Assembly (NCBI RefSeq): GCF_902810435.1
Contig: NZ_LR778174.1
Location: 1,720,501 to 1,784,500, forward strand
Length of the DNA: 64,000 nt
Source of the DNA: Veillonella parvula
GTDB taxonomy: Bacteria; Bacillota; Negativicutes; Veillonellales; Veillonellaceae
Reading direction: 5' to 3'
Part shown: in pieces, positions 49,985-53,764 of the stretch
How positions within the stretch are numbered: position 1 is the first letter of the stretch
Layout: each line of letters starts with the position of its first letter
Notes under the pieces: model-generated
Told to the model about the DNA's origin: nothing
The model's database searches: none
The model's input: the letters and a program-made list of their open reading frames with translations, nothing else
Translations under genes and position numbers: made by a program

Positions 49985-50647
49985 CTATAATGCTTCAAAG
50001 GTCATCACATCCTGGATGCCTGGAAACTCGCGCATAAACTGAACTGTAATAGGATTTACCACCGTATCTGTAGTAATAACCATGACTGCATCCTTATGCT
50101 TGCCCTTACGGAATACGCGCATCGTAGCGATGTTAATATCGGACTCGCTCAATGCTTGGCTCACAAGAGAAATCGCACCAGGTCTATCCTCATGGAACAC
50201 AACGAGCGTAAACTCATCTCCTGTAATGGACATATCATTTCCATCTACTTCGGTAATCATAATCTGACCACCGCCGAGAGAGCGACCAATAACAGTCATA
50301 TGACGATTATGTTCATCATACATATCAAAACGCACCACATTCGGATGCCCTACATCAAGAGGAGACTCAATAAAAGAAAACTCCATCCCCTCTTTTTTCG
50401 CTAATTCATGGGCAACTCGGATGTTCGCATCATCCTCTTTATAACCTAATAAGCCGCCAATCAAAGCACGATCCGTACCATGCCCTTTATAAGTTTTTGC
50501 AAAAGATCCATATAATGTTAAATCTACCTTTTTAGGAGTAGCACGAAAAATACAACGCGCCATCTTGCCTAGCCGAGCAGCACCCGCTGTATGCGAACTA
50601 GACGGACCAATCATAATAGGCCCTATAATATCAAAAATACTGTTCAT
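49985..50647 (-). CDS. sdaAB: L-serine dehydratase, iron-sulfur-dependent, beta subunit
   Basis: Partner of SdaAA. The 220-residue product (ATG at 50647, after GAGG) starts MNSIFDIIGPIMIGPSSSHT with the conserved SSSHTAGA serine-binding segment. It ends with an ACT domain (FHEDRPGAISLVSQALSESD), which usually senses serine. An apparent promoter lies about 50 bp upstream. Confidence 0.95.
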   Translation of the reverse strand: MNSIFDIIGPIMIGPSSSHTAGAARLGKMARCIFRATPKKVDLTLYGSFAKTYKGHGTDRALIGGLLGYKEDDANIRVAHELAKKEGMEFSFIESPLDVGHPNVVRFDMYDEHNRHMTVIGRSLGGGQIMITEVDGNDMSITGDEFTLVVFHEDRPGAISLVSQALSESDINIATMRVFRKGKHKDAVMVITTDTVVNPITVQFMREFPGIQDVMTFEAL

Positions 50648-50698
50648 ACATACCTCTATATACACATAAACCATGTGAAAAAATCCTATTTCACCTAT

Positions 50699-50728
50699 AG
50701 TATAGCAACCAATATCGAGCCTTGTCTA
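50699..50728 (-). promoter_or_regulatory. probable sdaAB promoter
   Basis: Minus strand: -35 TAGACA (50723-50728), 18-nt spacer, -10 TATACT (50699-50704), about 50 bp upstream of the sdaAB start. Confidence 0.6.
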
Positions 50729-50768
50729 TATGCACATTAGAGGCATATTTGTTTGTCTACAGAGGACT

Positions 50769-51092
50769 ACTATTCTTGTGAAAGCTGTTCTAAAACTTTG
50801 TATATTGATGGGACGCATCTATATCTACAGTTATAAAAAGGAAAGACTATACTTATGCAGCGACATCTCCCCCTCACCTCACTATTCTGATGAAAGCTAT
50901 TTTATGAGTTTGTATATTGATGGGACTTATATTTCAGAAACGTTTTACTAATGGGCATAACCTATTGAGGGCCGACTTACGCTGAGTATGGAGGCATGAG
51001 ATAGGTTATGCCCATTAGTAATCTAGTTGTCGCAATACTGTCAGGCCCCATCAATAAACAAACACTCGATAGATAGCTTTCACAATAATAGT
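50769..51092. repeat. three-copy 46-48 bp repeat with a 21-bp inverted repeat
   Basis: Unit copies at 50769-50814 and 50881-50926 are direct (about 39 of 46 bases alike); a third at 51045-51092 is inverted and 2 bp longer. Each starts ACTATT and ends with TATTGATGGG. Between copies 2 and 3 lies a perfect 21-bp inverted repeat (50945-50965 and 51001-51021) around a 35-nt loop. No transposase or coherent ORF is present. It could be a MITE-like element, a decayed repeat-coding gene, or a structured RNA. Confidence 0.8.
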
Positions 51093-51126
51093 AAAAAAAA
51101 CGCACCTAAGGATAACCCTAAGTGCG
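51093..51126 (-). terminator. terminator after hcp
   Basis: Hairpin at 51101-51126 with an 11-bp stem that is complete on the minus strand through two G-U pairs, followed by eight T. It lies 75 bp beyond the hcp stop codon. Confidence 0.85.
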
Positions 51127-51200
51127 TTATTTATAACAACAGTCCTAAATCATAAAAGAGAGGGGACGTAGGACTGTAGTTAACAGATTAATAGATCCTA

Positions 51201-52766
51201 TTAGCCCAAGATAGCTTTCATGTCAGCTTCTGGAGTTGTAATTGGATGTAATTGGAATTTTTCTACCAAAATGTTCAATACATTGCTGGAGAAGAATTTA
51301 GGCAAGGAAGGTCCGATGTAAATGTTACGGATACCCAATGCTAACAATGTTAACAAGATACATACCGCTTTTTGTTCGTACCAGGACAATACCAATGTCA
51401 ATGGCAAGTCGTTTACATCACATTCAAATGCACCAGCTAAAGCTACTGCTACTTGAATAGCGGAGTAAGCATCGTTACATTGACCCATATCAAGGATACG
51501 AGGGATACCACCGATTTCGCCGATGTTCATGTCGTTGAAACGGAATTTACCACAAGCCAATGTCAATACTACAGTATCATTTGGAGTTTGTTTAACGAAT
51601 TCAGTGTAGTAGTTACGGCCTACTTTAGCACCGTCACAACCACCTACCAAGAAGAAGTGTTTAATAGCGCCAGCTTTTACAGCATCAATTACTTTATCAG
51701 CAATACCCAATACTGTGCCATGACCGAAACCAGTAGTTACTTCATGACCACCGTTGATACCAGTGAATTCTTGAGCTTCTTTGTAGCCGCCCAATTCGAT
51801 AGCACGGTTGATAACTGCGGAGAAGTCTTTAGTACCATCTTCTTTTTCTTCGATATGTGCACAACCATCGAAACCTACCATATCTGTAGTGAAGATATTA
51901 GCTTTGTAGTTTTCTTTTGGTGGCATAATGCAGTTTGTAGTGAACAAGAATGCGCCAGGAACATCAACAAATTCTTTTTGTTGGTTTTGCCATGCTGTAC
52001 CGAAGTTACCTTTCAATTGAGGATGTTTCTTCAATTCAGGATAAGCGTGGCAAGGCAACATTTCACCATGAGTATAGATATTTACACCTTTACCATCAGT
52101 TTGTTCCAATAATTGTTTCAAGTCATGAAGGTCATGACCAGTTACAACGATGAAAGGACCTGGTTCTACAGTCAAAGGAACTGTAGTTGGTACAGGTGTA
52201 CCATATGTTTCAGTATTAGCTTTATCAAGAACAGCCATACATTTCAAGTTAATTTGACCAAATTCCATCAAAAGATCAAGCCATTCTTCAGCGCTGTGAT
52301 CTTTAGCGAATTCTACCATGCCTTTAACAAACCAAGCGTCAACATCAGCATCGTGGAAGCCAAGGCGAGCAGCATGCCATGCGTATGCAGCCATACCGCG
52401 CATACCTAACAATAATGTGGAGCGAAGGGATACGATGTCTTCTTCACCTTTCCACAATTGTTCCCAATCAAAGTTTTGTTGAGCGCTATCCACTTTTGCA
52501 TGGTAAGCATTTACTTCGTCAATGAATTCTTGAACGCGGTCTTCAGAGAAGTTTACGTTTGTTACACACATGAACAAACCGCGCATAATATAATCGATAC
52601 CTTCTTTAGTATGACCCTTTACGTCTAAAGCGCGAGCCAAGCCAACTAAGGCAGCAGTTAATTCGTCTTGTAAGTTAGCAACTGGTGCAGTTTTACCACA
52701 TACACCTTGTACAGTACAGCCACCTGGTGCTGCAGATTGTTCGCATTGATAACAGAACATGCTCAT
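51201..52766 (-). CDS. hcp: hydroxylamine reductase (hybrid cluster protein)
   Basis: Iron-sulfur protein with a hybrid Fe-S-O cluster, linked to hydroxylamine reduction and nitric oxide / S-nitrosation stress. The 521 residues begin MSMFCYQCEQSAAPGGC, giving N-terminal ligands Cys5, Cys8, Cys17 and Cys23 (C-x2-C-x8-C-x5-C), the spacing typical of anaerobe-type Hcp. Later ligand regions include GVNIYTHGEMLPCHAYPE, NCIMPPKENYK and FLVGGCDGAK. No hcr reductase is adjacent. It is divergent from a Crp/Fnr-family gene that probably controls it. Confidence 0.96.
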   Translation of the reverse strand: MSMFCYQCEQSAAPGGCTVQGVCGKTAPVANLQDELTAALVGLARALDVKGHTKEGIDYIMRGLFMCVTNVNFSEDRVQEFIDEVNAYHAKVDSAQQNFDWEQLWKGEEDIVSLRSTLLLGMRGMAAYAWHAARLGFHDADVDAWFVKGMVEFAKDHSAEEWLDLLMEFGQINLKCMAVLDKANTETYGTPVPTTVPLTVEPGPFIVVTGHDLHDLKQLLEQTDGKGVNIYTHGEMLPCHAYPELKKHPQLKGNFGTAWQNQQKEFVDVPGAFLFTTNCIMPPKENYKANIFTTDMVGFDGCAHIEEKEDGTKDFSAVINRAIELGGYKEAQEFTGINGGHEVTTGFGHGTVLGIADKVIDAVKAGAIKHFFLVGGCDGAKVGRNYYTEFVKQTPNDTVVLTLACGKFRFNDMNIGEIGGIPRILDMGQCNDAYSAIQVAVALAGAFECDVNDLPLTLVLSWYEQKAVCILLTLLALGIRNIYIGPSLPKFFSSNVLNILVEKFQLHPITTPEADMKAILG

Positions 52767-53038
52767 TTGAAAATCCTCCTTTGCGAGACTTCCTCGCAGT
52801 CAAGCTAGATAATATAAAACCTATACATTACACTGATGTTTTATCAGTTGTCTGATTGATTACATTTGAAAGTATAACGTAAAGATGATACAATTTCTGT
52901 AGCTTGAGCAACAAATAAAAACTTTTTCAAAAATTTTCCTGACTCCCCTTATGGAACAGGTAGACCATTCGGTCTTATACTTTTATTATACAATAATCAT
53001 TTTTAATTGCTATAGACTTTATCACACCGGAGGTGCCT
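52767..53038. promoter_or_regulatory. hcp / Crp-Fnr divergent promoter region
   Basis: For hcp, a perfect -10 TATACT on the minus strand (52871-52876) has no -35, suggesting an activator. A palindrome AGACC-ATTC-GGTCT lies at 52962-52975, about 20 bp before plus-strand -10-like sequences (TACAAT at 52989-52994) of the regulator gene. It may be that regulator's own operator. Confidence 0.5.
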
Positions 53039-53764
53039 ATGAAACAAATACTTTCAAACGATATCATTAATCAGTATATGCCCACCCTCGTGAAATGTCC
53101 TTTATTCAATACATTAGGAGAGCCAGAGCTGCGTGGCTATTTAAATAATGCCAAAGTTATCATCCACAGTTACAAAAAAAACGATTTTATAGCCCTCGCT
53201 GGAGATCCTATGGAGGGTATCGGCGTCATCCTTGAGGGCAGCGCTTTACTAACTCGTGAAAATGTCATGGGCCAACGGGTTATTATGGCAAACTTAGAAC
53301 AATCAGATATTTTCGGAGAAGCACTACTATTTAGTAAACAGCCTTTATGGCCTGCTACCATTAAGGCAACAAAAGCAACTAAAATTATGTTTATTCCGCT
53401 TGAAACCTTTATTAAAACATTGCCGGATTGTCATCAATGCCAAACTAAAATCCTATCTAATCTATTAGAGGATTTATCTGAAAAAGCAATTCTATTAACC
53501 AGAAAAGTCCACTACCTCACATTAAAAGGGATGCGCGAAAAGATTTTTGCGTACTTAACAGATATTTATAAACGTCAGCATTCTAACACAATTCAATTAC
53601 CCCATAACCGCGAGCAAATGGCTGAGGTACTCAATGTATCTCGCACAGCCCTTAGCCGTGAACTAGGGCGCCTTCGCGATGAAGGTCTCATTGATATTAC
53701 AGGGCGCACCGTAACAATTAAAAACATTGAAGACATTGAAGAATTCGGCTTTAACACCTTTTAA
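53039..53764 (+). CDS. Crp/Fnr-family transcriptional regulator
   Basis: A 241-residue protein with a cyclic-nucleotide-binding-like beta-roll (about 20-140) and a C-terminal winged helix with the recognition-helix segment NREQMAEVLNVSRTALSRELGRL. The Fnr N-terminal four-cysteine cluster is missing; cysteines are at LVKCPLF and PDCHQCQ. I use the ATG at 53039, since a GTG six bases earlier overlaps the CGGAGG box. Being divergent from hcp suggests a regulator of nitrosative stress of the HcpR or Dnr type. This is an inference. Confidence 0.88.
   Translation: MKQILSNDIINQYMPTLVKCPLFNTLGEPELRGYLNNAKVIIHSYKKNDFIALAGDPMEGIGVILEGSALLTRENVMGQRVIMANLEQSDIFGEALLFSKQPLWPATIKATKATKIMFIPLETFIKTLPDCHQCQTKILSNLLEDLSEKAILLTRKVHYLTLKGMREKIFAYLTDIYKRQHSNTIQLPHNREQMAEVLNVSRTALSRELGRLRDEGLIDITGRTVTIKNIEDIEEFGFNTF

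Follow-up and report, generated by a model that had tools for sequence, protein, structure and literature searches.

Long imperfect hairpins at gene ends in Veillonella form a dispersed repeat family that may have been shaped by replication template switching

We find that a non-coding patch of the Veillonella parvula chromosome consists of one complete hairpin unit preceded by a 5' half-unit that is cut in its loop. We propose that the patch belongs to a family of long, imperfect hairpins that are dispersed in the Veillonellaceae and maintained by vertical descent. The repeat is kept at gene ends, where its arms, its arrays of half-units and one inverted core fit template switching during replication, and where the units, judged from their sequence, probably work as putative terminators or mRNA-end hairpins. 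To this reading as a whole, family, origin and function together, we give about an even chance. As far as the tools used here show, the family is previously undescribed.

The stretch of DNA analysed, hereafter the window, is 64,000 nucleotides long and corresponds to positions 1,720,501-1,784,500 of a 2.146-Mb genome whose contig begins at dnaA. The patch is flanked by an sdaAB-like gene (49985-50674, - strand) and hcp (51201-52766, - strand), and its features are as follows.

50769-50864, + strand: 5' half-unit of type A, 3' half missing; closely resembles the corresponding half of full type A units in the Veillonella genomes G004, G005, G006 and G011
50769-50807, + strand: outer arm of the half-unit
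50808-50814, + strand: conserved ATGGGAC of the half-unit
50834-50854, + strand: stem arm of the half-unit, TAAAAAGGAAAGACTATACTT
50860-50864, + strand: tip motif GCGAC of the half-unit, which is cut after this motif, in the loop
50865-50880, + strand: C-rich spacer of 16 nt, ATCTCCCCCTCACCTC, between half-unit and complete unit, read from the sequence
50881-51092, + strand: complete unit, type B
50881-50919, + strand: 5' outer arm of the complete unit; its ATGAAAGCTATTTT copies the coding end of hcp (ATGAAAGCTATCTT) in the sense orientation
50917-51054, + strand: core of the complete unit, covariance model R1, 111.9 bits
50920-50926, + strand: conserved base motif ATGGGAC
50945-50965, + strand: 5' arm of the perfect 21-bp stem
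50966-51000, + strand: 35-nt tip, in which CCGAC (50972-50976) and GGAGG (50990-50994) are the compensated form of the family motifs GCGAC/GGAGC
51001-51021, + strand: 3' arm of the perfect 21-bp stem
51044-51051, + strand: conserved base motif GGCCCCAT, pairing with ATGGGAC around an invariant A.C mismatch
51052-51093, + strand: 3' outer arm
51071-51082, + strand: AGATAGCTTTCA within the 3' outer arm, repeating the antisense of the hcp coding end (51209-51220)
51099-51128, - strand: intrinsic terminator belonging to hcp itself, located between gene and element

The 341-nt patch folds with -111 kcal/mol compared to -70 +/- 5 for dinucleotide shuffles, far beyond chance (z = -7.9 on the + strand and -9.4 on the - strand). 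The preliminary description had seen here three copies of a repeat surrounding a perfect inverted repeat, and all of its coordinates were reproduced: two direct copies of 46 nt (50769-50814 and 50881-50926, 85% identical), an inverted copy (51047-51093) with segments of 17-29 nt that are 76-95% complementary to both direct copies, and the 21-bp inverted repeat with its 35-nt loop (50945-50965/51001-51021). While these sequences are real, the three copies are actually outer arms of one and a half hairpin units, namely the 5' arm of the truncated half-unit and the 5' and 3' arms of the complete unit. Similar peptides in the two direct copies had been taken as a hint of a decayed repeat protein. 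Both peptides (YSCESC.. and YSDESY..) are readable, but orthologous copies do not preserve the frame: their arms measure 45, 46, 47 or 51 nt and contain in-frame stops. The 73-aa ORF has no Pfam match. We reject a repeat-protein gene on these grounds.

A search of related genomes, proposed as a check in the preliminary description, found that the unit is not unique to this locus and has relatives across Veillonella. At the DNA level, further relatives of parts of the patch lie at 906, 1972 and 2120 kb of its own genome, and 10 of 14 Veillonella genomes have matches. A covariance model built from 18 cores (R1) detects the family in 13 of the 14 genomes (its own and 12 of 13 relatives) with up to 17 matches per genome, a few of which count one palindrome a second time, on the opposite strand; in the order, R1 gives weak matches in two other genera only. 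A second model of tip and stem alone (R2) finds the family in 13 of 14 Veillonella genomes and in six of seven genomes of one sister genus of the family (g4), and in none of the remaining genomes (about 360) among the 380 searched in the class Negativicutes. The sole R2 match in a 398-genome sample of the phylum is the window's own genome. No match was found in phages or plasmids, and three exact loop patterns are absent from viral contigs; a phage or plasmid origin was rejected on these results. A known Rfam RNA was likewise rejected, with nothing reaching the gathering score. Our literature search found no description of the repeat, nor did we find one in the main text of a Breaker-lab survey that reports several Veillonella-specific motifs (PMC8632094).

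In the window's own genome (G000), 8 of 9 loci lie within about 380 kb of dnaA on the 2.15-Mb chromosome, a zone that makes up about 35% of the genome (post hoc binomial p of about 0.0015, calculated by hand); old conserved loci could account for this clustering. One pair of units sits in the rnpA-dnaA interval, beside the origin.

Read from the outside in, a unit begins with a C-rich leader on its 5' side and an imperfect outer stem that is specific to the locus. The conserved base follows, then a section with loose pairing, the stem of about 21 bp and finally the tip. The base is formed by ATGGGAC opposite GGCCCCAT with its invariant A.C mismatch, and in the tip GCGAC lies opposite GGAGC, an arrangement in which tandem G.A pairs would be possible. 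Two alignments (A1 and A2) define a core of about 136 nt in which ATGGGAC, GCGA, GAGC and GGCCCCAT are invariant. The bases beside ATGGG are variable yet complementary (TCAATGGG/CCCATTGA, TCTATGGG/CCCATAGA and AGGATGGG/CCCATCCA). The boxes RYYYAAC and GTTRRRY of an integron attC site are absent at the hairpin base, which is ATGGGAC/GGCCCCAT in A1, and this candidate was rejected. At one locus (L080, 1700-2000) a single long hairpin contains two ATGGGRC/GGGCCCCAT base motifs, one above the other, as if units were nested.

The inner stem changes its sequence and keeps its pairing. Double-sided changes are found at all 18 aligned pairs, and 96.9% of cells are paired compared to 59.3% in shuffles and at most 51.5% in controls slid by one to three columns. 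Across 41 distinct stems, 99% of positions pair with the stem's own arm while this fraction drops to 56% with the arms of others. The same holds for 65 segments picked by their end motifs alone: 53 contain a perfect stem of 9 bp or more and 43 one of 15 bp or more, compared to an average of 4.9 and a maximum of 10 when the interiors were shuffled. The first pair of the tip switches from GC to CG with compensation, both in the window (CCGAC/GGAGG) and in the sister genus. Covariation of the stem alone cannot tell selection from correction by template switching, and it could arise partly from the latter instead of from selection. The tip and base are conserved across two genera, which points to selection or recognition, since template switching alone would not preserve the loop.

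One explanation for these features is a structured RNA family transcribed from promoters of its own on the + strand, for example a protein-binding sRNA whose C-rich (TCTCCCC) leader would pair with ribosome-binding sites. Such an RNA would account for the strong covariation around a conserved tip, for the tandem G.A-like GCGA/GAGC motif and for the C-rich leader that most units have in front of them. A functional + strand would be expected to show more G.U than A.C, and the wobble pairs lean that way: a first count in otherwise perfect stems gave 17 G.T to 2 A.C. In the larger set the raw G.U to A.C count is 41:10, but on 114 units with orthologues removed it is 16:8 and not significant (p = 0.15). 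The + strand may be favoured, though we do not take these counts as proof. Promoter-like sites show no excess (4 versus 2.4 +/- 1.4 in shuffles), there is no Rfam relative, and the units face gene ends instead of keeping a fixed regulatory position. We consider an RNA family of this kind quite unlikely.

The C-rich motif itself, resembling TCTCCCC, lies 35-45 nt before ATGGGAC and precedes most 5' arms and half-units, despite differing spacers, and would be complementary to a Shine-Dalgarno-like GGGGAGA.

Nearly all units lie head-on to the 3' end of a gene, with their 3' side facing the gene and usually 6-60 nt from its stop codon. The distance is 28-30 nt at dnaB, 18-59 nt at a nitrite/sulphite reductase-like gene, 28-30 nt at an MFS transporter (58 in G008), 11 nt at carbonic anhydrase and 6-9 or 35 nt at sfsA; at hcp it is 144-150 nt, with the gene's own terminator between. 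Exceptions to this placement are a divergent gap at 906 kb and the pair in the rnpA-dnaA interval. At many loci a divergent pair of units surrounds a central palindrome. The region between divergent pairs often carries a strong palindrome such as AAAGGGAATGGCTTAGCCATTCCCTTT or GGAGATGTGCCATAGGCACATCTCC (L068, L069, L070, L073, L074, L076, L077, L078, L079 and L080). At the carbonic anhydrase-bioD locus of G009 (L072, 2060-4520), 2.5 kb with two ORFs (251 and 455 aa) splits the two units and is absent in the other species read there.

On the mRNA strand the stem terminates with A/T pairs, and in most units a stable hairpin is followed by a T-run behind the stop codon, as in an intrinsic terminator. 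A/T pairs occupy the stem base (positions 17-19) in 33-39 of 41 stems and give a T-run on both strands. The type B stem of the window has no T-run, and hcp there has its separate terminator. In G002 and G013 dnaB has no unit and is followed by a plain hairpin after the stop codon, while in G011 a remnant of a plain terminator hairpin is recognisable beyond the unit, which places the unit between the dnaB stop codon and the old terminator.

These observations bring the units close to intrinsic, bidirectional terminators, with which they share a hairpin behind the stop codon, an A-run before it and a T-run after it. Ordinary bidirectional terminators that simply grew long, without special recognition, would explain the position, the A/T pairs on both strands and the replacement or accompaniment of plain terminators at dnaB. 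The units are, however, very long, and a loop of about 30 nt, a tip and base motif shared by the whole family and the invariant A.C mismatch are not needed for termination; some units lie outside gene ends and the family is confined to two genera. We regard this explanation as very improbable. As to function, the units are most economically read as terminators or as protective hairpins downstream of the stop codon, to whose tip a putative factor would bind. In the mRNA such a unit would be a terminator-like hairpin that blocks exonucleases, its conserved tip would be read by a protein or nuclease, and selection on the tip would preserve the family.

The outer arms bear a relation to the genes that they face. 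In Veillonella, the last 10-45 coding bases of the gene recur, inverted and imperfectly copied, in the 5' outer arm at five loci: sfsA, the nitrite reductase-like gene, carbonic anhydrase, the MFS transporter and hcp. Local alignment scores at these loci are mostly 20-36 compared to shuffle 95th percentiles of 17-19, and the opposite orientation scores 10-18. For the window the score against the hcp coding end is 23 (95th percentile 18, p 0.008). The 5' outer arm thus matches the sense gene end and is an inverted duplicate of it with the core at the centre. When the mRNA end is folded, 19-46 coding nt pair with the 5' outer arm in 7 of 8 units tested (sfsA, nitrite reductase-like, carbonic anhydrase and MFS). 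A search for such a copy found none in the sister genus or for the gene that flanks the MFS locus on its far side, and at dnaB no more than seven bases agree. In most cases the arm matches the gene ends of other species nearly as well as its own, which suggests that the copying is old and not ongoing; concerted evolution of arm and gene end was rejected on the same small difference between the scores.

The hcp-sdaAB locus presents the family in various states across species. There is one type A unit in G004 and G006, an A-half with a B-unit in G000 and G008, an A-half, a B-half and an A-unit in G011, a remnant with a B-half and an A-unit in G005, and five 5' halves with a B-unit in G009. G012 has a 3' remnant only, and G001, G002, G003 and G013 have no element. 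In G010 (L142) the entire core has the opposite orientation to that in G004 (L143) while the outer arms are the same, which amounts to a natural inversion of a hairpin spacer.

The motif TGTCTATATGCACA (50725-50745), upstream of sdaAB in this region of the window, is shared by species that have the hairpin and species that lack it; it is likely a promoter or operator of sdaAB. A divergent gene for a Crp/Fnr-type regulator (53033-53764, cNMP-binding and HTH_Crp_2 domains) adjoins hcp and is a plausible hcp regulator.

Dispersed copies whose occupancy differs between species would be expected of a non-autonomous transposon, MITE-like or REP-like, with the core mobilised in trans by an enzyme that recognises tip and base and prefers gene ends, and with the arms as remains of the site. 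A type A or type B core at the same locus (dnaB, L002 versus L026), the nested units of L080 and the insertion between the dnaB stop codon and its old terminator agree with this. Yet G008 has 16 R1 matches and no IS200-type Y1 transposase (Y1_Tnp), reverse transcriptase (RVT_1) occurs in 3 of 14 genomes and not in G000, and the family is absent from phages, plasmids and, by the three loop patterns, viral contigs. Outer arms copied from host gene ends at five loci are not expected as transposon cargo. Units are present or absent depending on the locus, with no target duplication seen; at hcp and dnaB the empty sites are too diverged to define junctions. We consider a transposon possible but unlikely. 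The suggestion of a mobile or RNA element in the preliminary description is partly supported: the units are scattered over many loci, differ in occupancy between genomes and have a structure that covaries. Neither a target duplication nor a mobilising enzyme was found, and template switching at a hairpin accounts better for part of the inverted-repeat pattern.

Neither Y1_Tnp nor RVT_1, searched in the 14 genomes, correlates with the family, and mobilisation by IS200/RAYT or reverse transcriptase was rejected; a retron or other reverse-transcribed element fails on the same RVT_1 distribution (3 of 14 genomes, not G000). The close pair G000/G009 does not provide a clean empty site, the G000 locus being occupied by about 3.6 kb of other DNA. 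This DNA (L224, G000:C1:212300-217100) includes a DNA cytosine methyltransferase-like gene and takes the place of the hairpin unit seen in G008 and G009. Y1 transposase matches number 0 to 14 per genome, fragments included, vary between related species and do not track hairpin copy number.

We hypothesize instead that the units originate by template switching. A DNA polymerase copying through the gene end would switch template at the hairpin and copy back; this would write the gene end onto the far arm and make the stem perfect again, older 5' arms would be pushed outward as half-units, as in the array of the window, and the core would sometimes be flipped. Template switching between inverted repeats has been described to homogenise arms and invert spacers (PMC8604942), and hairpin copy-back has been studied in an E. 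coli system (PMC7202029). We infer that this one process would cover four features: the inverted copies of gene ends, the perfect but drifting stems, the displaced 5' halves with a single 3' half and the flip in G010. It does not explain the arrival of the core at new loci or the alternation of A and B cores at one locus, and some mobility in trans, or recombination between copies, is therefore still needed. It is conceivable, though we think it unlikely, that the unit is a self-propagating hairpin renewed or moved by fold-back DNA synthesis, capturing host gene ends as its outer arms, with a tip recognised by a dedicated factor; such an element would be built by template switching and not by a transposase.

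The family is best classed among interspersed palindromic repeats, with a likely origin that is unusual. Like REP, REPIN and BIME repeats, which go with RAYT transposases, the units are extragenic palindromes, often at gene 3' ends and in pairs of alternating orientation, and for those repeats too roles in termination and mRNA stability have been proposed. REP sequences, however, are 20-40 nt long with a GTAG or CGTC tag, occur in more than 100 copies and go with a RAYT (Y1_Tnp), whereas the Veillonella units are about 200 nt long with a 21-bp stem and a tip of about 30 nt, reach up to about 17 copies and have no associated Y1 transposase. MITEs and repeats of the ERIC and BOX type, the latter with repeated inner modules, are similarly non-coding, palindromic, intergenic and modular, and terminal inverted repeats, by which MITEs are recognised, are present in the unit. 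Unlike these, the Veillonella hairpin has no parent transposon found (Y1_Tnp and reverse transcriptase families searched) and no target duplication seen, its arms derive from host genes at several loci, and its stem covaries instead of being copied identically. Homogenisation of arms and spacer flips, both seen here, are patterns of quasipalindrome template-switch mutagenesis, which is known as a mutation process but is not known to build dispersed element families that share a conserved tip.

Palindromes interspersed at the ends of bacterial genes were recognised decades ago, and their origin is usually ascribed to transposases. This small and well-bounded family shows apparent intermediates of a route without transposase: arms copied from genes, ladders of displaced 5' arms, an inverted core and drifting paired stems. 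It offers a natural system to test the construction of palindromes by template switching, and it extends the structured nucleic-acid families of a common human commensal genus by one whose tip is conserved.
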